Part shown: positions 2,552 to 21,263 of the stretch, in pieces | How the letters are laid out: the number at the start of each line of letters is the position of its first letter | Numbering within the stretch: the first letter of the stretch is position 1 | Virus record (IMG/VR): IMGVR_UViG_3300007734_000459 | Coordinates: 1 to 21,263 of that record | DNA length: 21,263 nucleotides | From: a virus | Direction: 5' to 3' (one strand) | The notes under the pieces: model-generated | The model's input: the letters and a program-made list of their open reading frames with translations, nothing else | Databases searched by the model: none | What the model was told of the DNA's origin: nothing | Position numbers and translations under genes: made by a program

Positions 2552-2799
2552 TTGACCCACTTACCCTTTGGCTCTTGGTTCGTGTTCGTTCGCGGCCTTA
2601 ACCCGCAATCGATCTCACGGATGTGATCTCGCTCTGCCTCGCACTGGCGCAACCTCGCCTCCACCGACTCGAACTCCCGCACCTTCACCTCCCACTCGAC
2701 AATCCAAACCACCACCTCCCGAAGCCGCTGTGCATCTCGCTCCGACCCGAGCGCGGCGACTCGGGTGGCGATCCTCAGGATGGAGTCGGCGTGTGTCAT
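2548..2799 (-). CDS. Small predicted coiled-coil protein, 83 aa
   Basis: An 83-residue charged protein. The central part (about residues 10-62, rich in R, E, V and L with repeated VEARLRQCEAERD-like spacing) looks like a helical coiled coil. The C-terminus is polar and basic. The start at 2799 forms an ATGA overlap with the primase-helicase stop, so translation is probably coupled to it. It may act as a small partner or dimerisation factor in replication, but this is inferred only from position. Confidence 0.6.
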   Translation of the reverse strand: MTHADSILRIATRVAALGSERDAQRLREVVVWIVEWEVKVREFESVEARLRQCEAERDHIREIDCGLRPRTNTNQEPKGKWVK

Positions 2800-4808
2800 A
2801 TAACTAGGACTTTCGGAAGTTCCTCTTCACTTCTTTCTTCTCCTTCCCTTCTTTCTTTTAGAAGGGAGGGAGAAGAAGGAAGAGGAACATCTTCTTCTTC
2901 CTCCTTCTTATTTGGGGGAGGAAGAAGAGAGACTTTAGAACCATATTTGAGTTGGTTTCCTGTCTTGCCGTTGCTCACGATTAGACCTTCTTCGACTGCC
3001 TCGTCGTTGATTTCGGCAAATGTGGTCTTGGACACTGGGATCTTCTTTCTGACCCGATTGTGAATCTTGGTCAAAGACTCAAAGATTCCTTGGAACATGT
3101 AATTGTGAGCCAAGTCTTCAGCCGTCAATTTAGGGCCAGTATTCCATTTCTTTAGTTTCGCCTCTTTCATTGGGTCGTAGTGAAACAGCGGCCACTCCCA
3201 TCGCAATACCTTTGGCATGATGGGTTGCCATGAACGCACTGCCGCGTCAAGAACGAAGTGCTTATCTTCTTCATGCTGTCTCACGATGAGATGCGTGTCA
3301 GCCGCCCGGCTAATACTGCCAGCGCCCGCTCCGACATCGGTCACGCCCTTCTCGCCTTGATTGCCTTTGCTGGCGTGGTGGATCAGAACAAAACAGCAAT
3401 CAAGTTTCTGCGACCATCCGTCAACCATGTTGTAAACATTTGCCATCGCTCCGTTATCGTTCTCACTAATTCCAGCGCAGATAAATCTGTAGAAGGCATC
3501 AAGAATGACCATGCCGTATTTGTTTTTCTCGATGGTGTCAAACAGCAACGGCCCAATTTTGTTGAAGTCGATTAGGTTGCCGCGAAGATTCAAAGTGTCG
3601 AGGTCTGAGAGTTCACCAGGGTCGACACCAAGCGCACGGCAAACTTCGGGCAATCGGCTTGCCGTTGTCTCTCCGTGCAACTCATTGTCAATGAGCAGGA
3701 CTCTGCTTTGATCACATTGAAAATTCAGCCAAGGCCGTCCCAAACTTGCATTAATTGCAAGGTTTAAAACCATCCAAGATTTGCCAGTCTTTGGCGGTGC
3801 GATGATGTTCATCGTCTCGCCCGAACGAAGTAGACCGTGAATAATTGGACGGCGCAATCCATTTTTATGTTCTTTTAATAATTGTAATATTGGCTTAATT
3901 ACTAACGCAGAATCTGCAACCATTGGCAGGACATTCTCCGCATCGCCGACGCACGCTAAACGCGGAAACTTAAACGCATTCGCAATCTGCCTCGGTATGT
4001 CGAGCAGATCAATTGGCGACAGCCCGAGCGTCTGCGCCCGCTCTTCGATTACTTTAATGGCATCGCCTTCATCCCATTGACGACCTTTAAGATCGCACGC
4101 CACCGTGAAGATGGTCTGTCGGCGACCCGCAGGCATGACATAGCCTTCGTTGAGGAATCGGTGCGACAAGTTGCTGAGAGACTTTGGCACTGGCGGCACG
4201 ACAACTCCCACTCGCTCCGACTCTCCATCCGTCGGGTCAGGAAAGTCCGCAAGCGAGTAGGTGTTGTCCGTGTCGACTGCGGCCACATAGCACAGCGGTC
4301 GGTGGTCGTACTTGGTATTCACAAAGCCCGGCAAGCGCATCAGGCGCGGAGCGTCGTGAATGCACTTGTCAGAGCCGAGCCGAGCCGCGAGTGCCTTCTG
4401 ATGCGCACAGTGAATATCCATGTCGAGGCACGGCTCAGAGAGCCGCCACCAAGCATGCACGCCGCCTCCAGTGGCAACAATCGCGGTCGGCTCAGGTATC
4501 AATGATTCTTCGATACGCATCTTGGCTTGCTCGATGGTCGTTCCACCGTCGAAGTCTGCGTACAGGCATCGAGCCATTTTCACATCCTTGGCCGTGCCGC
4601 CAGTCTTGTTGGCTCTCGGGTTGGCTCCGAAGTACATGTCCGTCTTGCCGCCGAGTTTCGTTAGATCGGCGATGAGGTCGGGCGCATCCTTGAGAGTCGT
4701 CCACTTCTGCACGCGCATTGCGCCAAGCGTGCGAATCTCGATGATGTCGTTTGCGTCGAAGATGTAGGGCAGCAGGCGATAAGCGTGGCTGATGACTTCA
4801 GTTTCCAT
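2796..4808 (-). CDS. Bifunctional primase-helicase (AEP-type primase plus RecA-fold helicase)
   Basis: A 670-residue replication protein. The N-terminal half resembles RepB-type archaeo-eukaryotic primases: YADFDG (residues 83-88) holds the catalytic acids, GGGVHAWW (114-121) the active-site His region, and RLMRLPG (155-161) the following conserved strand. The C-terminal half is a RepA/DnaB-like RecA-fold ATPase with Walker A APPKTGKS (337-344), Walker B GMVILDAFY (about 432-440) and a sensor-like LIHHASKGN (about 475-483). It would prime and unwind phage DNA. The start at 4808 gives a TAATG overlap with the preceding gene. The last 40 or so residues (from about 629) are low complexity, rich in P, E, K, R and S, and coincide with two long DNA hairpins. 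Confidence 0.9.
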   Translation of the reverse strand: METEVISHAYRLLPYIFDANDIIEIRTLGAMRVQKWTTLKDAPDLIADLTKLGGKTDMYFGANPRANKTGGTAKDVKMARCLYADFDGGTTIEQAKMRIEESLIPEPTAIVATGGGVHAWWRLSEPCLDMDIHCAHQKALAARLGSDKCIHDAPRLMRLPGFVNTKYDHRPLCYVAAVDTDNTYSLADFPDPTDGESERVGVVVPPVPKSLSNLSHRFLNEGYVMPAGRRQTIFTVACDLKGRQWDEGDAIKVIEERAQTLGLSPIDLLDIPRQIANAFKFPRLACVGDAENVLPMVADSALVIKPILQLLKEHKNGLRRPIIHGLLRSGETMNIIAPPKTGKSWMVLNLAINASLGRPWLNFQCDQSRVLLIDNELHGETTASRLPEVCRALGVDPGELSDLDTLNLRGNLIDFNKIGPLLFDTIEKNKYGMVILDAFYRFICAGISENDNGAMANVYNMVDGWSQKLDCCFVLIHHASKGNQGEKGVTDVGAGAGSISRAADTHLIVRQHEEDKHFVLDAAVRSWQPIMPKVLRWEWPLFHYDPMKEAKLKKWNTGPKLTAEDLAHNYMFQGIFESLTKIHNRVRKKIPVSKTTFAEINDEAVEEGLIVSNGKTGNQLKYGSKVSLLPPPNKKEEEEDVPLPSSPSLLKERREGEERSEEELPKVLVI
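2819..2888. repeat. Long imperfect polypurine/polypyrimidine hairpin in primase 3' end
   Basis: The pyrimidine arm 2830-2852 faces the purine arm 2860-2882 around a 7-base loop (TTCTTTT). Of 23 paired positions 21 are Watson-Crick and two are G-T. An alternative outer stem pairs GTTCCTCTT (2819-2827) with AAGAGGAAC (2880-2888). The element lies inside the coding sequence of the low-complexity primase tail. No T run follows on the minus strand, so it is not a canonical terminator. Confidence 0.85.
2893..2928. repeat. Second polypyrimidine/polypurine hairpin in primase 3' end
   Basis: TCTTCTTCCTCC (2893-2904) and GGAGGAAGAAGA (2917-2928) are a perfect 12-bp inverted repeat with a 12-base loop, only a few bases from the larger hairpin at 2819-2888. 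Both arms are strand-asymmetric (all pyrimidine, then all purine). Confidence 0.85.
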
Positions 4809-5383
4809 TAGACCAAATCTCCATCGCCATTTATCCAAGTAAATTCAATGCCATTTTGCCGCGCTGTATCCCACGACAACGATCTAAACACCGTGCCGTC
4901 TTCGTCATTTGTGTGACGCTTAAATAAATCTTGATTGTCGCGCATGACTTCAATCAGTTGAGACGAACGGATACCAGCTGCACATATAAAGTCTTTAGTC
5001 TTTTTATTAAAGTAAGACTGAACATGTAGATACGGTTTGATTGACTCAGAGTCCGCATCTATTAACTTTTTCCATTCTGTGTGCTGGCTCTTGTTTTTTG
5101 TTAGTTCCCGAATAGTCCATGTATTAAATGGTTCAACCCAACACTCTTGGGATCTATGCGCAATTCCTTTAATTGATTTGTTTTGGCTGACTTGAAATGC
5201 GTCTATGCCACAACTCATATCCAAAAACCTTTTAAATGAATCGTTTGATCCCTCGACCATTTCGATATTTCCACCGCCACAATATGGAGAAATTAAGGGC
5301 CATATAAATTTAAATTTATCGTTGCTGTTTAGAATTTTTGTAAAGCACGGAAGCGGATCAGATTGATCTATTTCAATTTTCAT
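4808..5383 (-). CDS. AT-rich hypothetical protein, 191 aa
   Basis: A soluble 191-residue protein with no membrane segment or signal peptide. Visible blocks are PYCGGGNIEMVEG (about 33-45), a segment GIDAFQV followed by KGIAHRSQ (about 59-79), TWTIREL (about 88-94), and a strand-like YLHVQSYF (about 117-124). The GIDAxQ...GIASR-like and TFTIR-like blocks faintly recall a conserved phage protein found near replication genes, which I cannot name. The gene is markedly AT-rich compared with the methyltransferase upstream and the primase downstream. It starts 11 bases inside the methyltransferase gene (GGAG seven bases before ATG) and ends in a TAATG overlap with the primase, so it is embedded in the operon. 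Function unknown. Confidence 0.75.
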   Translation of the reverse strand: MKIEIDQSDPLPCFTKILNSNDKFKFIWPLISPYCGGGNIEMVEGSNDSFKRFLDMSCGIDAFQVSQNKSIKGIAHRSQECWVEPFNTWTIRELTKNKSQHTEWKKLIDADSESIKPYLHVQSYFNKKTKDFICAAGIRSSQLIEVMRDNQDLFKRHTNDEDGTVFRSLSWDTARQNGIEFTWINGDGDLV

Positions 5384-6689
5384 TTTTATGCTCCGCTATT
5401 CGTCCCTTGGCAATAGCGACATAGTCAGCATTCGTATCCCCTGTGATACAGAATCGATCTGTGGCATACGCGGCAAGTGCTGTAGTGCCAGCGCCACAAA
5501 ATGGATCAACAACCAATTCGGATTCATACGACCCGAGTTGAACAAGTCTGCGCATCAATCCAAGCGGCTTTTGTGTCGGGTGGAACGATTGATCATCTTT
5601 GTGGGTCGATTGTGGAACAACATATTTTTGCACATCGAATCGCTCCTCTCCCCATTCCTCAGGAAGATTGAGATGCCTTGTTCCGCAATGCCAAAATGGT
5701 TCATAGGAAGATAAGAATGTCATGCTCCCGGTGCGCTTCTTTGCCAAGTTGGGTCTGTGCCAAATAGCCTGCCTCAACACTGGCCAACCAGTATCGACAA
5801 GAACCCGATGCAGTTGTGTTGTCTTGTCTGCGTCGCAGAACACAAATGCAGTAAAGTCGGGGCGCATCTTTGGTCGCAACAATCCCAACCAACTGCGCAT
5901 AAATTGCCAATACTCATCCTCGCTTGCCCACACATCCCAATCATTTTCCGTCACCGCATACGGTGGATCAGTTAGCAACAAGTGAACTGACTCGTCAGAT
6001 AGTGACGAGATCAGTTGCAAGCAATCTGATTTCCTAATGTCAATTCCCTTTGTCTTTACTGGTGTTGACTGCGCTAGTTCAATCTGCCGCGTCTTGAGTG
6101 CCTCGACTCGCTTCTCCTTCTTCATCTTTTGTTGCACTTCACTCACCTTGATCGTGCCCGCCTTGATGCGCTCAAACGCCTCGGGATTCTTGACCTTGAT
6201 CGCCTTGGCTAAAGACACCATGCGAGAACTGACGCTGACAACATCGGCGGCGTGGTCGCGGGCTTGATCGGCTCGTTTGAGTTTTATCTGAGGCAAATTT
6301 GCCTCAGATTGTTTTGACGGTCTACCAACAGTTTCGTCGTATCGCTTCTTCGCCTCCACCGCAAACATCGGCTCGAGTTCAACAGCCACGCACGCCCGCT
6401 GGCTTGCGTCAAGTTGCCGCCGCTTGATGTTGGCACTGATGACAAAGGTCACCGGGCTGTTGCCTTCGTACTGTTTGAACGACGGCTCAACGCCGCAGAT
6501 CGCGCACGCCGCCAATCGGTTGCGGCCGTCGAGCAACAGCCCCTCCCACATAACTATGGGCTGTTGCAAGCCGTTGGCTTTGATGTCGAGTGCCAGCGCG
6601 TCCAACTCCTCTGCGTTAAGCATCGGAAAGATCTCGGCGGCGGGATGTACTTTGAGTGCGGTCTTAGACCGTGTGAGTGTCGTAGTCAT
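5373..6689 (-). CDS. ParB-like domain fused to beta-class DNA methyltransferase
   Basis: A 438-residue fusion. The N-terminal region (about residues 10-110) has ParB/Srx-like motifs, notably LLDGRNRLAA (52-61). A helical linker follows. The C-terminal methyltransferase has DPPY (241-244, motif IV), HPTQKP (370-375) and DPFCGAGTT (395-403, motif I). Motif IV before motif I defines the beta class, which methylates adenine N6 or cytosine N4. No restriction enzyme gene is evident, so it is probably an orphan phage methyltransferase for protecting DNA or regulating genes. The start at 6689 is set by AAGGA six bases upstream; a Met five codons earlier lacks such a site. It is the first gene after the terminator-bearing gap. 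Confidence 0.93.
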   Translation of the reverse strand: MTTTLTRSKTALKVHPAAEIFPMLNAEELDALALDIKANGLQQPIVMWEGLLLDGRNRLAACAICGVEPSFKQYEGNSPVTFVISANIKRRQLDASQRACVAVELEPMFAVEAKKRYDETVGRPSKQSEANLPQIKLKRADQARDHAADVVSVSSRMVSLAKAIKVKNPEAFERIKAGTIKVSEVQQKMKKEKRVEALKTRQIELAQSTPVKTKGIDIRKSDCLQLISSLSDESVHLLLTDPPYAVTENDWDVWASEDEYWQFMRSWLGLLRPKMRPDFTAFVFCDADKTTQLHRVLVDTGWPVLRQAIWHRPNLAKKRTGSMTFLSSYEPFWHCGTRHLNLPEEWGEERFDVQKYVVPQSTHKDDQSFHPTQKPLGLMRRLVQLGSYESELVVDPFCGAGTTALAAYATDRFCITGDTNADYVAIAKGRIAEHKNEN

Positions 6690-6790
6690 GTTGCGTCCTT
6701 GCATTTATTAAAAGCGAGCGACGGAACCCGTGGAGGATCACCGCCGCCCGCCGTCCGGGGTTCATTTAAGTTTCTGACTAGTTCGCAGAC

Positions 6791-9271: not shown

Positions 9272-9663
9272 GCTGCACCTCGCATCTGTCGCCACGCCAA
9301 GACGGCGCGTTGCATCAGCGATGATTTCTGCACTTCGCTTACAAGGTCGCGCTCGAGGATCTCGCGCACCATGTCGCCCTGCCCGAGCGAGACCAGCGGG
9401 ATCTCCGTCGGTCTGTCGCCCTGCAATATCCGCTCGCATGCGGTCATCACGCTTGACGGATCAGCCTCGGCGACAGGATCAAGAAGTCTGATCACATCGC
9501 CTAGACGGCTTGCGATCACGAGTTGAATCGCCATCGCTCCGTGTCGGAGTTGCTTCGCCTCGGCTGGCTTTGTCGCTTCGATCCTCGCGGCCAATCCGCG
9601 AAGCCGATCCATTGCCAGAATTACATCTTCCGCCCTGTCTCCCCAAGTTGAATCCTTGCTCAT
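9268..9663 (-). CDS. Hypothetical helical protein, 131 aa, overlapping the integrase tail
   Basis: A helical, charged protein with heptad-like segments (VILAMDRLRGLAARIEA and LVIASRLGDVIRLL), ending in SSLMQRAVLAWRQMRGAA. Family not recognised. A good ribosome site (AAGGA about seven bases upstream) supports the start at 9663. The first 185 bases also encode the end of the integrase in another frame; residue composition here looks like a normal protein, while the integrase frame over the same bases is Arg/Ser-rich, so this frame is probably the selected one. It ends in ATGA with the exonuclease start and is probably an accessory gene of the recombination cassette. Confidence 0.75.
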   Translation of the reverse strand: MSKDSTWGDRAEDVILAMDRLRGLAARIEATKPAEAKQLRHGAMAIQLVIASRLGDVIRLLDPVAEADPSSVMTACERILQGDRPTEIPLVSLGQGDMVREILERDLVSEVQKSSLMQRAVLAWRQMRGAA

Positions 9664-10789
9664 TCTGCATCCTTATCTGACTGACCAGTTGGTCAATCGA
9701 GTGGATCAGACGGTCAATCGGGCTTGCGTTACAAATCCCGCCAACCCGATTTGCGTCTGATTGCAGTTGATGAGAGTCCCCACGAGGGTTCAAGTGTTCA
9801 AGCCCGAAGCCCCCGCGAGGACACTCATCGACTGCATTGTTGTTAGTAGAGGGCTTGAACACGGGCGTATCAGAACATGGGTCTTTTGCTTTGTCAAGGG
9901 CTTGGAGTGTGGAATCTTTCCCGATTTGTGAAATTTTTTCTATGCCTGCTTTCAGAGTGGAATCCTTGTGCCGCAAGTAGCGGTGCGTTTGATCCACGCT
10001 TTTGTGCCTGACCAACTTCTGAATCAGGTCAGCCGGCACGCCCAACTCGAACGCGCTCGTGATGAACCCGACGCGCATCCTGTGCCACTTGCCACGGCCC
10101 TCGATGCCGCAACTTTTCATGTCACGATCAAGCCCCTTCTGCGTCGGGTAATCGGTGAACACCATCTCGCTCCCGACACTTTGTCGCGATAAGTGTCGCC
10201 ACTCCCGCAGCGTCGCTACCACGCTTGCCGATATTGGGAGTGTGTCGCGCCGTCGACTCTTATCTTTTGTGACCTTGATTTCTGCACGCTCGAGATCGAT
10301 GTCATCCCACCGCTGAAAACGCCACTCACCCCAACGCATGCCAGTGCCGTTGAGCAGTCTGTACAGCACGGCTCGAGCGTTGGCGTTGTTTCGAATACGG
10401 CCGTCAGGATGCCGCGCCGCACGCTCGGCGGCGACGATCAACCTATTGACCTCGTCCTGCGTCAATGCGTCTGCGCCTACGCCAGCGCGTCCACGCGGGG
10501 CAGGGATCGACACCCACGGATTGATGTTGAGCCTGCCTTGAACGACGAGCCAACCCGCGAACTGACGGCAAATAGACATCCGATTCCTAATTGTCTGCGG
10601 TGAAAGTTTGCGGCTCATGCTCATCGCACTCAACCATGACACGCAACTTGCGGGTGTGAGATTGTCGCCAGCGTGCTCGACCCACCGCCGCGCCCATCGC
10701 CCCGCATTCTTAGAATGATGGCGGTCGTAGCCCTGTTGATCAACGAGCCACACTTCCCAAGCGAGAACCTCGTCGGTGAGTGTCAGCAT
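9479..10789 (-). CDS. Tyrosine recombinase / phage integrase with long C-terminal tail
   Basis: A 436-residue integrase. A SAM-like DNA-binding N-domain (about 1-95) precedes the catalytic domain. Catalytic residues seen: Arg in GTGMRWGEW (about 152), Lys in VTKDKSRRR (about 175-177), HRMR (236-239), His in LVRHKS (262) and the Tyr nucleophile in THRYLRH (271). The set is complete. About 165 residues follow the Tyr, far more than usual: a segment with KDSTL repeats, a Gly/Pro/Asn-rich part overlying strong inverted repeats, and an Arg/Ser-rich end overlapping the next gene. The start at 10789 is chosen to fit the integrase N-domain; the ribosome site is poor. This gene marks the phage as temperate and divides the late from the early genes. 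Confidence 0.92.
   Translation of the reverse strand: MLTLTDEVLAWEVWLVDQQGYDRHHSKNAGRWARRWVEHAGDNLTPASCVSWLSAMSMSRKLSPQTIRNRMSICRQFAGWLVVQGRLNINPWVSIPAPRGRAGVGADALTQDEVNRLIVAAERAARHPDGRIRNNANARAVLYRLLNGTGMRWGEWRFQRWDDIDLERAEIKVTKDKSRRRDTLPISASVVATLREWRHLSRQSVGSEMVFTDYPTQKGLDRDMKSCGIEGRGKWHRMRVGFITSAFELGVPADLIQKLVRHKSVDQTHRYLRHKDSTLKAGIEKISQIGKDSTLQALDKAKDPCSDTPVFKPSTNNNAVDECPRGGFGLEHLNPRGDSHQLQSDANRVGGICNASPIDRLIHSIDQLVSQIRMQNEQGFNLGRQGGRCNSGNGSASRIGREDRSDKASRGEATPTRSDGDSTRDRKPSRRCDQTS
9762..9862. repeat. Interleaved inverted repeats in the integrase 3' region
   Basis: Pair A: 9762-9779 with 9819-9836 (18-base arms, 16 matching). Pair B: GTGTTCAAGCCC (9794-9805) with GGGCTTGAACAC (9851-9862), perfect over 12 bases. 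The arm order is A, B, A', B', with spacers of 14, 13 and 14 bases, which is the topology of an H-type pseudoknot rather than of nested hairpins. Nearby are a TGACCA-GT-TGGTCA dyad (9682-9695) and a direct repeat GGTCAATCG (9691-9699, 9712-9720). Possible roles are attachment or arm-type sites, or a structured RNA in the integrase transcript. Confidence 0.85.
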
Positions 10790-10906
10790 CAAGGGGGAAT
10801 TGTAGGCAAGCAAACCACAAACACGAAATAAAGTGCGGAAAGTCTTTAACATTCCCCGCCATTCGGTCGAAATTTATTCGTGCTTTAGCCGCCACATTTA
10901 AGAAGT

Positions 10907-16338: not shown

Positions 16339-16782
16339 TTAGATTGCGGCAAGTGTGAAAGCAGCCGAACATTTGATGCTGAACGAGATCGTCAGAACAG
16401 CGTCGGTCGCAGCCTTGACGCTGAACCCGGTCACAACGCCGACGCCGCTGACGGTCATGCCGCCAGTCGATGCCGCGCCGAACGAGATCAAATATGAACG
16501 CAAGGCACGATCAGTCGCAGCAGTTGCAATTGCAACTTGTTGCGCATCGTCGTAGTCGAGATTCAGTTCGATTGCGATTGAGCCTGCATCCAAAATTCCA
16601 GCCTTGTACCGCTTCACGGCATCGCTGATCGATGTGCAATCCAACGATGATTGCGCAACGCCGTCAAATGACAGTGATGTCACTTCGCCGATTGCGGCGT
16701 TGGCTGTTGGACTTGAGTATGCGTCGGCTGTGCCAACCGCTCCGATTTTGATTGTTGTGCTGTATGAAATTGTTGCTGCCAT
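16339..16782 (-). CDS. Major tail tube protein
   Basis: A 147-residue, Ala/Ser/Thr-rich, beta-strand protein with ISYSTTIKIGAVG at the start and IAIELNLDYDDAQQVAI at about 68-84, matching lambda gpV/HK97-like tail tube proteins in size, pattern and place (after the tail terminator, before the chaperones). It polymerises around the tape measure to build the tail. AAGGA lies about nine bases upstream of the start, a spacer of about 30 bases separates it from the previous gene, and the uncoupled site probably allows high expression. Confidence 0.85.
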   Translation of the reverse strand: MAATISYSTTIKIGAVGTADAYSSPTANAAIGEVTSLSFDGVAQSSLDCTSISDAVKRYKAGILDAGSIAIELNLDYDDAQQVAIATAATDRALRSYLISFGAASTGGMTVSGVGVVTGFSVKAATDAVLTISFSIKCSAAFTLAAI

Positions 16783-16812
16783 GTGAGTGATTCCTTTTGT
16801 TGGGGGTGAAGA

Positions 16813-17277
16813 TTAAAGACCAGTAGTCAGGCTGACCGGGACTGGCGTAGTGGCGACATAATAAATTTTGATATTGACTGAACAGACAAAGACACCAGCG
16901 TTCTCGCCGCCATCCGATCCGAGATCGAATGTCATGGAGTCGTTGGTGATGATTACGGATTGAATGACCATCGTGGCACTCGTCACAAGAGTGATGCTGC
17001 CCTTTGCTTTGTCGAGGTCGTATCGCACATGGTCGGCAATGCGGGCCGCATCAACTAGCGATGTCCCGACGCAGTCGACGACAACCGACGCTCTGCGCAA
17101 TGTGTCCTTGCTCGTGAGTGTCGGAGAGACAGCGTCGTCGCTTTGCGCACCGACGACGATGAATGGAAAAGAGGTGGTTGGAGGCGCGAGTGATTGAAAG
17201 ATATTTCCCGCGCCGACAAAGCCAATGACTGTCGGAGCCTGTTGCAAAATCTTGTGGATGGCTTCGACGAATCTCAT
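16813..17277 (-). CDS. Tail terminator / tail completion protein (DUF3168 type)
   Basis: A 154-residue protein with an N-terminal helix (FVEAIHKILQQAPTV), FPFIVVGAQSDDA at about 37-49 and VVVDCVGTSLVDAARIADHV at about 65-84, the pattern of DUF3168 proteins that cap the tail tube and join it to the head. Position between the gp10-like gene and the tail tube is canonical. The start at 17277 gives ATGA with the previous stop. Confidence 0.85.
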   Translation of the reverse strand: MRFVEAIHKILQQAPTVIGFVGAGNIFQSLAPPTTSFPFIVVGAQSDDAVSPTLTSKDTLRRASVVVDCVGTSLVDAARIADHVRYDLDKAKGSITLVTSATMVIQSVIITNDSMTFDLGSDGGENAGVFVCSVNIKIYYVATTPVPVSLTTGL

Positions 17278-17834
17278 GGGTTCTTAAGCCTGCTCTCAAT
17301 TTGATTGCCCCATCTTTTCAAACCGTTTTTGACTTCTTCGCGGAGCGTCAGTTCAACGCTGAACGAGAGTTGATCGAATACTTGTTTGAAAATCTGCCAA
17401 CCTGTGAACGCCCGAGCGGGGTCTTTGTAACGGCCGAACTCGATGAGCCAGGAATTTTGAGTTGACCCGAAGATGCGTGCCCACACCGACAGACCATTGT
17501 TGATCACTTTCGGCTTGATCCTGTTTTTGAGAATGTTGGCGGCGATATTCGTGCGGCTCTCGCCTTGCGGATGCGACACATTTCGCTTGCCCTTGACTTG
17601 CTTGCCAGTCCAGCCGCTCGTGTATCCACCCGCCCAACGCCAAGACGCTTGCGCTTCTGTTTGCTTTCCGTCCCACGCGCCGCGCTTAGTTGCGAAAAGG
17701 CGAGCAGCCGTGATTCGCATCGGCTCCATTGCCTTCTTTTCAGCCTTGGAAAGAATTGCGAATAGATCGTCGACGCTCAGTTTGTGCATCGTATTTTCAA
17801 ACTGCTTAAAACCGTCGACATGCTTGCGGGTCAT
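17274..17834 (-). CDS. HK97 gp10-like tail component
   Basis: A 186-residue basic protein. The C-terminal half has SWLIEFGRYKDPARAFTGW (about 128-146), corresponding to the EFG...PARPF-type signature of HK97 gp10-like neck/tail proteins, followed by a helix. The start at 17834 is chosen for the TAATG overlap; a Met six codons earlier lies in the previous gene. It probably acts at the head-tail neck. Confidence 0.82.
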   Translation of the reverse strand: MTRKHVDGFKQFENTMHKLSVDDLFAILSKAEKKAMEPMRITAARLFATKRGAWDGKQTEAQASWRWAGGYTSGWTGKQVKGKRNVSHPQGESRTNIAANILKNRIKPKVINNGLSVWARIFGSTQNSWLIEFGRYKDPARAFTGWQIFKQVFDQLSFSVELTLREEVKNGLKRWGNQIESRLKNP

Positions 17835-18181
17835 TACTGAACCTCCCTGCAAGTCATCTCGAGCGTGTGACCTTCTTGGCGGTAGTCGACGATTGAGATG
17901 ATCTCGAATGTGGCGGTCTTGGATGCGTTGTTGGCATCGCGGCTGATGCTGGCTGTGAATCGGTCGTAGTGGTTGATGCCTGGATAAAAGTTGGTCGTGA
18001 TCTTGTGGGTGACCAACTGATCAAGTTTCATGTGGTTGGTTTTTTCGTCGGCGGTGCAATCCTTGATCTGCCCGAAGATGGTGTCGCCAGTCGTGAATGT
18101 GTAGGTCGGCGTGCCGTATGTATTCAGCGTTTGCGTGCGGGTCTTGATCACAAGCGGAGTCCGCATGAGTCCGCTGTTCAT
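17834..18181 (-). CDS. Head-tail joining (head closure) protein
   Basis: A 115-residue beta-rich protein. It has the short N-terminus then LVIKTRTQTLNTYGTPTYTF, and later HKITTNFYPGINHYDRFT, a pattern typical of phage head-tail joining proteins (SPP1 gp16/HK97 gp7-like) that close the head after packaging. Residue length and order after the gp6-like gene agree. ATGA overlap at the start and TAATG at the end. Confidence 0.82.
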   Translation of the reverse strand: MNSGLMRTPLVIKTRTQTLNTYGTPTYTFTTGDTIFGQIKDCTADEKTNHMKLDQLVTHKITTNFYPGINHYDRFTASISRDANNASKTATFEIISIVDYRQEGHTLEMTCREVQ

Positions 18182-18834
18182 TGGTACTCACCCGACTTGT
18201 ATTGGGCGATCAAAGCCTTGACCGTGCCGGGCACTTCGTACTGTTGACCCGGTGCAAGTGTGGATCGATAGTCATACAGCGTCGAGCACTGCATCAAGAT
18301 TGCGTGCTTGAGCGCGATAGGTATCGCAGTTGCGCTGGAGCCGTGACCAGCCACATAGACAACTGTGACCACGCCTGCGCCGCCGCTGATGAGTGACGGC
18401 CATGATTTGCCGTCGAGTAATTGGATGCGTCCAATGCCGTTGTAGGACTTCACGGTGTAGTCGGTCGACGCTGACAAGGTCTGCGTGTTGCCAGCCGTGT
18501 CGACATACTGCACGCTCGTCACGCTGACCAGCGGCGAGCGCGGCAGTGCGATCTCGTAGGATGATCCGTTGTAGACCTCGCCGCTCGAGCCTTGCACTAG
18601 CGTGTTTTGCGGAAATGCGCTGTAGACCGATGTGAATGTCGTATTTGGAATTGCGATGCCGCAATAATTTTCGATCATCATGCGGGCTGTCGTGATAATC
18701 GAGGTCGACCCGCCGCTGCTTGCAGCCAGATAGGTGTCATCGAGCGAGTGGAATATGCGCAGATGCGCCTTGACCTGCGCAGTCGACACTGGCTCGAAAC
18801 TCGGAGCGGTCGTGATCGTGGTGTTGACTCTCAT
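18178..18834 (-). CDS. gp6-like head-tail connector protein
   Basis: A 218-residue protein. Near the start, FEPVSTAQVKAHLRIFHSLD followed by a helix ending MIENYCG is the signature of the HK97 gp6 / phage QLRG connector family, which forms a ring between portal and tail. The middle is beta-rich (SYEIALPRSPLVSVTSVQYV), as in longer members of this family. The start at 18834 is selected because it makes an ATGA overlap with the small head gene; the longer frame upstream is Arg-rich shadow. Confidence 0.87.
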   Translation of the reverse strand: MRVNTTITTAPSFEPVSTAQVKAHLRIFHSLDDTYLAASSGGSTSIITTARMMIENYCGIAIPNTTFTSVYSAFPQNTLVQGSSGEVYNGSSYEIALPRSPLVSVTSVQYVDTAGNTQTLSASTDYTVKSYNGIGRIQLLDGKSWPSLISGGAGVVTVVYVAGHGSSATAIPIALKHAILMQCSTLYDYRSTLAPGQQYEVPGTVKALIAQYKSGEYQ

Positions 18835-19031
18835 CGCGGTGTCGCTCCCTTCTTTACTGCCTTGCATGGCACGGCCCGCGAACAGCACTGCATATCGTCG
18901 GAGTCGGCACGCTCGGCGAGACCGAGTGCAAGCCACTCGATCGCTGTGCGCTCGTCGACGGCGACAACTTCGCCCGGCGCGTGTGCGCCAGTCGCTGTCA
19001 CGACTCCTTGGATCATCTTCACATTCGGCAT
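18831..19031 (-). CDS. Small head-region protein, 66 aa
   Basis: A 66-residue protein beginning MPNVKMIQGVV, with GEVVAVDERTAIEWLALGLAER as its main helix-like block (residues about 20-41). Short phage proteins with a strand, GEVVEVDE-like turn and a xxWLxLGLAExx helix are common between capsid and connector genes and are thought to be minor head proteins. The start at 19031 is favoured by the GAGG four bases upstream, which lies within a stem-loop. It ends in ATGA with the connector gene. Confidence 0.7.
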   Translation of the reverse strand: MPNVKMIQGVVTATGAHAPGEVVAVDERTAIEWLALGLAERADSDDMQCCSRAVPCKAVKKGATPR

Positions 19032-19035
19032 AAAT

Positions 19036-19063
19036 CCTCGGCACGCATTTCTGCGAGCCGAGG
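19036..19063 (-). promoter_or_regulatory. Stem-loop covering the ribosome site of the small head gene
   Basis: On the minus strand CCTCGGC-T-CGCA-GAAA-TGCG-T-GCCGAGG forms an 11-bp stem with one T-T mismatch and a GAAA (GNRA) tetraloop. It begins 23 bases after the capsid stop codon, and its 3' arm contains GAGG, the only ribosome site of the next gene. No U run follows, so RNA stabilisation or translational damping is more likely than termination. Confidence 0.8.
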
Positions 19064-19086
19064 GTTGATTCAATTTAGTTCAGTAA

Positions 19087-20346
19087 TCAGACTGCGCAAG
19101 TAAGAACGCTGAACGCGTCTTTGAGCGTGATGGAGAAATCCACACGATTCGTGGCCAAATATCCAACTTGTCCCGATGAGGCAAACAATTCTTTCAAGAC
19201 GCGCATGCTGTATGAACCGCGTTCTGCGAGCACGGAATAATTTCCGAAGTCGCCGATCACGCCGATCTTTGCAGTTGTCGCACTGACCGGCATTGCGGCT
19301 GATGCGTAAACAGGAATACCCATCAATCGATCAGGCTCACCAAGTGCGCCTGAGTTTTGCCAGAAGTAATTCACAGTGCCAGCAAGTGAGCCAAGTTGAC
19401 GCAACTTGCCAAGAGTCGCATCGTTGACCAAGATGCTGGCATTCGTGCGGTACTGACGAGGCAGTGAGTAAACCCAATCGATCACTTCAGCGGCTGTGAT
19501 TGCACTGTTTGACGCAGTCGTCTTGCCAGTGGCAATCGTAGTAGCCGCCGAGCCTGTACCCAACAAAGTATTTGCAGGACCGTTGGTTGCGACTGTTGGT
19601 CCAACAAACGCGGCTTCTTCCGCTTGAGCAAACAGACGAGCGAAAGACTCGGTGAGAATCGCCTCAATGCTAAATCCTGCGCCACGCGCTGGAGCATCTT
19701 CGACGAGTTCATTCGAGACCTTCAAGAGAGCGGTCAACTTTTTAGGTGTCAATGTGATCTTGTCAAAAGTTTGACCAGTCTCCGTGATTGTGTTTCCTTC
19801 CGCTGCAAAAGTCGCACTGCCTGCCGCGTTATCCACGGCAAACTCACGCGCATAACTGCCGATGGTGATTACCTTGGCAATCTGTCGGATTGCGGTCATC
19901 GTCTTGAGACGAGTGGTGATCGCATTGTGGAACTCGAGTGGTGGCAACACCGTTCCTCCGCTTGCCTCGCTGATTGCGCGGATCTCTAGCGGGTTGGTGT
20001 ATTCACCTGAACGGATGTAAGAACCCCAAGCGTTTCGATATTCGTCGGTGTCGGTGTTGCGACCAAACTTGCTAGATGCATTCTCAGCACTAGGCAAATG
20101 TCGAACTTGTTTCGCAGCCTCGGGAGCGTCGGCTTTAAAGCCCGCGCCAATGTTCATCAGTTCATCGCTGCGTTGTCGTTGCGCTGTGAGTGATGCGTAT
20201 TGCATCTTCAACGCGCTGTACTTCGCTTCGAGAGCGTCGGACATGCCTTCGCCGCTGTCATTTGCGTCGTCGCACATCTTCTTCATTTCTGCGTACACTG
20301 CGCCCATTTTCTCTACTAGTGCCTTGTATCCACTATCGTTTGTCAT
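19087..20346 (-). CDS. Major capsid protein, HK97 fold (complete copy)
   Basis: A 419-residue HK97-type capsid protein. The first 110 residues are charged and helical (a scaffold-like delta domain, MEKMG/KKMCDD region), then come the E-loop/P-domain strands (about 130-230), the family hallmark LLKVSNELVED (about 212-222) and the A domain, ending FSVLTCAV. The start at 20346 is set by AGAAGGA eight bases upstream; the longer frame would read through a structured leader. No maturation protease is visible in the window. It follows a second HK97-type capsid gene with a 99-base spacer and precedes the small head protein and connector genes. Confidence 0.92.
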   Translation of the reverse strand: MTNDSGYKALVEKMGAVYAEMKKMCDDANDSGEGMSDALEAKYSALKMQYASLTAQRQRSDELMNIGAGFKADAPEAAKQVRHLPSAENASSKFGRNTDTDEYRNAWGSYIRSGEYTNPLEIRAISEASGGTVLPPLEFHNAITTRLKTMTAIRQIAKVITIGSYAREFAVDNAAGSATFAAEGNTITETGQTFDKITLTPKKLTALLKVSNELVEDAPARGAGFSIEAILTESFARLFAQAEEAAFVGPTVATNGPANTLLGTGSAATTIATGKTTASNSAITAAEVIDWVYSLPRQYRTNASILVNDATLGKLRQLGSLAGTVNYFWQNSGALGEPDRLMGIPVYASAAMPVSATTAKIGVIGDFGNYSVLAERGSYSMRVLKELFASSGQVGYLATNRVDFSITLKDAFSVLTCAV

Positions 20347-20367
20347 AGTAAAAATCCTTCTTGTTGT

Positions 20368-20421
20368 GTCGAGCGAGAGTCGATCACCCCAACGCTGGGG
20401 CAACAGACACGCACGCTCGAC
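20368..20421 (-). promoter_or_regulatory. Two-tier stem-loop in the spacer between the two capsid genes
   Basis: Outer arms GTCGAGCG (20368-20375) and CGCTCGAC (20414-20421) are perfect 8-bp complements. They enclose an inner hairpin CCCCA-ACGC-TGGGG (20387-20400). On the minus-strand RNA the structure ends about six bases before the AGAAGGA ribosome site of the complete capsid gene. A further ACAGAC/GTCTGT pair (20403-20408, 20429-20434) offers an alternative fold. Confidence 0.75.
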
Positions 20422-20445
20422 GGTGAATGTCTGTGAAATAATTCG

Positions 20446-21263
20446 TTAACCGCGATACACGCCGTATGCGGCATTGATGTCTGTGAGAACGCCAGCGCAT
20501 CGCATGCTTACGACGAACGCTGTTTGATTTGTTTCGCCAAAGGTCTCGACCAAGCGAGTGACTTGTGCGCCTTCCGTTGTTGAGAAGAATGTGTAGCGGG
20601 AGAGATCGCAGAGGATTGCGATAAATTCGCCAGTGTCGGGAGTAAGACCTACTCGAGATGCCCCACATAATTCTGCCCAAATCAGTGGTCGTGCAAACAA
20701 TTTGGATTCCGTGATGAACATCGGATTTGACCACGACGCTATAGTCATTGTGTTTGCAAGAAAATTTCTATTTATTTGAGAATTTAAAATAAAAGAGCAT
20801 CGGTTCCAATATGCCGCCTGCATGAAATCCATACTGTTCAGGCTCATCAGTGAAACAAGTCCGAGACCACTAGCGGATGTGAAATTTCCGTTAGTAGATC
20901 CAATCAATGTCGTCGTCGTCATACTGCGTGTGCTGTATCGCTTCAGCGTGCTCGCCAATCCGTGGCAAGAGTCGGAGCCAGCGGTCGTGCCTGTACCCGC
21001 AGTGACTGAATCAGTCGCATTGCCAAGCAAGATTTGGCGATTGATTTCCTTGCCGATGTCTTGCGCCGCTTGACGAACAATCCAACTTTCAACGCTGGCA
21101 TCGCCTTGACCCGCAGAATCTTCAAGCAATTCGTTTGACACTTTCACCATGACGCTGATGCGCTTGAGCGCGAGAGTGGCCGTGGCTGAGCCTGTGTTGC
21201 TTGTGCCGGGGAGTGCGATGGTCGGGACTGTTGCTTGCGTAGCCGCTGTCGTTGCGTCAATCA
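20446..21263 (-). CDS. Second HK97-type capsid protein (5' end outside the window)
   Basis: The reading frame is open to the window's right edge, so the N-terminus is missing; 271 residues are visible. The segment LKRISVMVKVSNELLED then VESWIVRQAAQDIGKEINR is the classic P-domain/spine-helix signature of HK97 capsid proteins. The rest is a Ser/Thr-rich A domain ending GVLTDINAAYGVYRG. It resembles the complete capsid gene only at family level (shared VSNELxED), so the pair is divergent rather than a recent duplication. Either could be the major subunit; the other may be a minor subunit, vertex protein or decoy copy. Its upstream neighbours (protease, portal) are outside the window. Confidence 0.85.
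   Translation of the reverse strand, partial: IDATTAATQATVPTIALPGTSNTGSATATLALKRISVMVKVSNELLEDSAGQGDASVESWIVRQAAQDIGKEINRQILLGNATDSVTAGTGTTAGSDSCHGLASTLKRYSTRSMTTTTLIGSTNGNFTSASGLGLVSLMSLNSMDFMQAAYWNRCSFILNSQINRNFLANTMTIASWSNPMFITESKLFARPLIWAELCGASRVGLTPDTGEFIAILCDLSRYTFFSTTEGAQVTRLVETFGETNQTAFVVSMRCAGVLTDINAAYGVYRG

Follow-up and report, generated by a model that had tools for sequence, protein, structure and literature searches.

In bacteriophage T4, the genes of the two HK97-fold capsid proteins lie in the order 23 then 24. The hexamer protein gp23 and the vertex protein gp24 are about 20% identical, the T4 protease removes 65 residues from the former and 10 from the latter, and mutations enabling gp23 to make pentamers map to the axial domain (PMC9958956). 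A paper from 2025 describes T4 as the only virus in which two HK97-fold proteins are known to have separate roles (PMC12407261). A literature search for phages with two HK97 capsid proteins returned only T4 and the two-component encapsulins, with most subscription journals and preprints outside its scope. In the Rhodobacter gene transfer agent (RcGTA), the spikes attach to the pentamers of the capsid at their axial domains (PMC7296036).

The window analyzed here is an IMG/VR virus record of 21,263 bases, in which all recognisable phage genes lie on the minus strand. At its right end, two adjacent genes both encode HK97-type capsid proteins. Gene A (19087-20346, minus strand) is complete and encodes a major capsid protein of 419 aa. 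Gene B (20446-21263, minus strand) is 5'-truncated by the end of the record at 21263 and lacks its first ~106 residues. Downstream of A, PHROG matches identify a set of head-tail genes (16339-19044, minus strand) for the adaptor Ad1, head closure, neck/tail completion, the tail terminator, and the major tail protein. Upstream of B, relatives carry genes for an S78 prohead protease and an HK97-type portal; in one of them (L052), the portal matched PF04860 at 4.7e-92 and the protease matched PF04586 at 2e-35. Across relatives, the order is portal, prohead protease, B, A, and connectors. This is the HK97-type siphovirus head module, with the portal and protease read in L052 and the connectors read after A in the window, which ends inside B.

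Between A and the Ad1 gene, a small ORF (18831-19073, minus strand) is kept in most loci (56-100% over ~43 residues) and had no match in Pfam or PHROG. Other genes in the window encode a DNA methylase (5373-6704, minus strand; N6_N4_Mtase, 2.4e-30), whose N-terminal part looks ParB-like by eye, a tyrosine integrase (9479-10852, minus strand; 2.6e-18), and a RepB-primase/AAA protein (2796-4838, minus strand). The latter two suggest a temperate phage. A host/prophage search across genome contigs gave a single weak match. This group consists of small tailed phages that are uncultured, and their largest records are below 28 kb.

Protein A is a full-length member of the HK97-fold phage capsid proteins. 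It matched Pfam Phage_capsid (PF05065) at 5.3e-49, above the curated cut-off and over positions 1-279 of 280, as well as TIGR01554 at 2.2e-65 and the 'major head protein' category in PHROG. Among PDB sequences, its profile matched the RcGTA capsid at 1.4e-42 and HK97 at 1.1e-4. The motif VSNELVED is encoded at about 19696-19719. The start codon of A is most likely the ATG at 20346, giving 419 aa rather than the 438-aa TTG ORF, since a Shine-Dalgarno-like AAGAAGGA (20355-20362, minus strand), itself conserved, stands 8 bases ahead of it and the same ATG is found in relatives. The N-terminal ~98 residues of A (20053-20346, minus strand) occupy the place of the HK97 scaffold domain and were modelled by AF2 as two helices with a local pLDDT of about 70-80. 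This scaffold (delta)-like domain is absent from B, which aligns only from residue 99 of A onwards. The overall AF2 model of A was unusable owing to a shallow alignment, and the fold assignment of A rests on sequence.

The truncated copy of B matched PF05065 at 7.4e-14, again above the curated cut-off, and PHROG also classes it as 'major head protein'. Its closest full-length relative (L003:19-1152) is 89% identical and matched PF05065 at 2.5e-16. An AF2 model of this relative was of modest confidence (pLDDT 57, pTM 0.61). Within that limit, its best Foldseek matches in the PDB were HK97-fold phage capsids, proheads, and encapsulins, including the RcGTA capsid (E 6e-12, the lowest value) and the HK97 capsid (3e-9), and its best viral structure matches were annotated HK97 capsid proteins. 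The motif VSNELLED, encoded at about 21118-21141 in the window, lies just before the long spine helix in the model. The family match and the fold together place B among the HK97-fold phage capsid proteins. Membership of the T4 gp24 family was not found, as a B profile searched against all PDB sequences matched only the RcGTA capsid (0.006). In INPHARED at 1e-5, there was no relative of the B of the window or of L038, and a B2-type query returned two records at ~24%, at least one of which is an ordinary head protein.

Full-length relatives of B are mostly 329-394 aa long. The B proteins inspected begin with M..LDRG..EEYR.LF..Y or a similar sequence, and their capsid fold starts no more than about 10 residues in, at the point where mature A would begin. 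The scaffold-like domain of A is absent from every B examined. The B proteins of L141 and L207 carry a glycine-rich repeat-type insertion (GGSGYTSAPTVAITGGGGS) ahead of the VSNEL region, which may form an additional surface domain within the E-loop.

The first-pass annotation of the window had described A and B as two HK97-type proteins that share the motif VSNELxED and differ widely in the rest of their sequences, and had regarded such a pair as unusual. The matches above and the following results bear out all of these points. A and full-length B share 28% identity across their best-matching ~200 residues, and profile-profile comparison aligned A 99-408 with B 11-374 at 99.4% probability. In a control set of 150 actinobacterial genomes, PF05065 occurred at 26 places, no two of them adjacent. 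A tblastn search with A hit 289 places in 287 phage records, so that nearly all of those phages have one such gene, and seven relatives of A in annotated phages are each accompanied by no second capsid gene.

Structure prediction and a search for the same gene pair in other phages had been proposed as checks. The former gave the HK97-fold matches of B, and the latter revealed that the pair is widespread. IMG/VR was scanned with either protein, the spacer DNA, and alignments as queries, and the loci were reduced to 80 distinct A/B pairs, all 80 of them with B preceding A. Where A stands alone, the locus is cut off at a contig edge, with the exception of L150. This locus encodes a weakly related A and lacks an upstream B (L150:3713-4972), and is possibly a single-capsid sister lineage that would be useful as an outgroup. 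Across the pairs, A falls to ~41% identity and the B types to <30%, which indicates that the pairing is old. Neither internal stop codons in B nor clear losses of B were seen in relatives. In a joint tree, A forms one group (99/94) and B another (100/100); the single capsid proteins of other phages are nearer to A, and B sits on a long branch. Either a duplication of A or a capture may have given rise to B.

The B gene is also a site of frequent exchange. Collinear genomes with about 80-95% DNA identity over their main aligned stretches lose detectable similarity inside B, and in pairs with B1/B2 swaps the edges of similarity lie near the start codon and the stop of B. On the A tree, at least 7 changes of B subtype are needed among 18 rows, and 11 changes between B1 and B2 in the wider set. 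Metagenomic chimeras at the conserved spacer could mimic some of these exchanges, and L017 and L030 come from one sample; the exchange pairs L013/L021, L014/L023, and L008/L028 come from different samples.

Variation within B is concentrated in a segment between the spine helix and the C-terminal strands, which is the axial domain (residues ~221-320 in L008 numbering; 20617-20919, minus strand). Among close B relatives, the mean pairwise difference is 0.36-0.52 at residues 221-320 versus 0.0-0.2 elsewhere, and the matching region of A is much less variable. The dS of this segment is 1.57 versus 0.22-0.41 elsewhere, a jump indicating that the segment has been exchanged mainly through recombination and is not simply under selection to change. 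Outside it, B is under purifying selection, with a pN/pS of about 0.1-0.3.

A shell with two HK97 subunits is the best reading of this locus, since the pair is kept in all loci, B is under purifying selection outside the axial domain, and B has no scaffold-like domain. From the sequences, the use of both proteins in the shell is likely. The first-pass annotation had suggested a two-subunit shell, with distinct pentamer and hexamer proteins as an example; the two subunits stand, and the division into pentamers and hexamers is what we infer from the comparisons below. A would be the main subunit and would build the hexamer lattice; its N-terminal scaffold-like domain is one that the prohead protease encoded nearby is expected to cleave off. 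B would be a minor subunit with no scaffold of its own that enters procapsids driven by A and forms separate capsomers there, most likely the pentamers at the non-portal vertices. The axial domain of B would lie at the center of the capsomer and, in some lineages, seems to be paired with a head-spike fibre whose gene comes shortly after A. The virion would then contain both proteins, A in cleaved form and B at the vertices.

The vertices are proposed for B on the basis of a third gene linked to B type, taken together with the spike-pentamer binding of RcGTA and the T4 parallel. In some relatives, A and the small conserved ORF are followed by gene C, which matched NCBIfam GTA_spike_fiber ('phage head spike fiber domain-containing protein') at 4.8e-38. 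In the first set, all 8 loci with B2b or B3 had gene C, compared with 0 of 21 other loci with room for it, the window being among the 21. The loci with gene C are L058, L060, L065, L023, L024, L025, L026, and L036, and L023 has it although its A belongs to another lineage. In the wider set, gene C changes 3 times on the B tree versus 6 times on the A tree. Gene C thus follows B type better than A lineage, with few independent B-C events behind this count and with a domain that is not head-specific, as GTA_spike_fiber also matches well-known cellular control genomes. Some B2 loci without gene C (L209:5455-7206, L212, L216, L123:3089-4018) have another gene with weak fibre-like matches in the same position. 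Variation in the axial domain could have other causes, e.g., host or grazer contact on any capsomer.

We assign a probability of roughly 0.55 to the reading in which B forms the capsid vertices and A the hexamer lattice. A broader proposal is that a large lineage of such phages depends on a dual-HK97 shell whose vertex protein would be a recombination cassette with a hypervariable axial domain. Matching head-spike fibres would be exchanged along with it, so that modular corners are set into a fixed lattice. This proposal is tentative, and we rate it at somewhat less than even odds.

Mixed capsomers of variable or irregular composition, in which A and B co-assemble as in the shell of Family 2B encapsulins, would be another way to use both proteins. 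Random hetero-pentamers of two HK97-fold proteins do occur elsewhere (PMC12407261), and the constant joint occurrence of A and B would suit them. However, coevolution would be expected in such capsomers, whereas the axial domain, which makes the within-capsomer contacts, is the most exchanged part of B and is conserved in A. B is moreover swapped frequently against a nearly unchanged A, as would be expected of capsomers made of B alone more than of close mixtures. We consider the mixed arrangement unlikely.

The spacer between B and A (20347-20445) contains an 81-nt structured RNA element (20355-20435, minus strand), and 34 stretches of the viral collection have this element at the same B-A position. 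Its 13 distinct sequences have a mean column identity of 95%, and its conservation exceeds that of both flanking genes. The element has two nested stems, an outer stem (20414-20421 with 20368-20375, minus strand) and a hairpin (20396-20401 with 20386-20391, minus strand), in which 4 pairs are changed on both sides; their covariation score was reached by 0 of 500 shuffles. A possible crossing stem (20428-20434 with 20403-20409, minus strand) is invariant among the sequences, and the element may be a pseudoknot (ACAGACA with TGTCTGT). The single-sequence fold gave z = -2.55, and an Rfam scan of the spacer found no family above its threshold. An intrinsic terminator was considered and dropped, as no T run directly follows the stem. 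The position of the element just ahead of the ribosome site of A suggests a role in the control of A translation or in mRNA processing. The first-pass annotation had proposed that a stem-loop spacer could set the ratio of A to B. A conserved structured element does exist in the subgroup of the window, but in L038 and L040-L042 the spacer is 18 bases long and lacks the element, which rules it out as the general means of setting the ratio.

With a conserved RNA element between them, the two genes could be controlled separately, and B could be an alternative capsid protein for another head, differing in size or condition, or a switch subunit. Against this, B has no scaffold domain, the module showed a single protease gene, A does not occur without B on contigs with room for it apart from the weak relative in L150, and the genes are co-directional and ~100 bases or less apart. 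We consider this reading improbable. Slightly less probable again is that B acts outside the shell lattice as a capsid-fold accessory, e.g., inside the head, at the portal vertex, or in assembly. A fold may serve more than one purpose, and B is shorter than A and variable, but the parts of B that make lattice contacts (N-arm, E-loop, spine, and C-terminal strands) are under purifying selection. Finally, the greater divergence of B and its exchange by recombination might be expected of a functionless redundant or captured copy or of an assembly artefact, both highly improbable and rejected here, as was the captured second gene of the first-pass annotation in so far as it would be dispensable or decaying, because the pair is intact in 80 of 80 loci over deep divergence (A down to ~41% identity) with no internal stops, no clear losses, and low pN/pS outside the axial segment, and was seen in many independent metagenomes.

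Among known systems, the one-capsid module of HK97-type siphoviruses has the same order of portal, S78 prohead protease, capsid, and Ad1; it has one capsid gene, whereas the A/B phages have two. The RcGTA head is the best solved-capsid match of A and the best fold match of B, and it bears a fibre with a domain related to that of gene C in some relatives. However, RcGTA makes pentamers and hexamers from one capsid protein (PMC7296036), unlike the two of the A/B phages. Family 2B encapsulins resemble the pair in that two HK97-fold shell proteins are encoded together (PMC12407261). They are cellular nanocompartments with mixed hetero-pentamers and cargo, whereas A and B belong to a phage head module; an encapsulin operon of this kind was rejected, as portal, protease, connector, and tail genes adjoin the pair.

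The likeness to gp23 and gp24 of T4 extends to two diverged, neighbouring HK97-fold genes with a prohead protease in the module. All 80 pairs keep two such capsid genes side by side, and the predicted N-terminal propeptide is long in A and short in B (~98 and ~10 extra residues, judged from the genes). In T4, the axial domain decides between pentamer and hexamer (PMC9958956), and here the axial domain of B is its most variable part among close relatives. There are also clear differences. The gene order in this group is minor then major, and the phages are small and have an HK97-type head module, whereas the T4-type head has a separate scaffold. B is an exchange cassette for which no sequence relation to gp24 was found, and its putative vertex role is deduced from genes. 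By analogy, the chances are slightly better than even that B works like gp24, and we do not file it as a gp24-family protein. An always-kept pair lends itself to testing how dedicated vertex proteins evolve and what maintains them, and supplies many independently exchanged vertex candidates for comparison. By comparison with these systems, the dual-capsid pair is most likely a variant of the division of labour that the literature credits to T4 alone.
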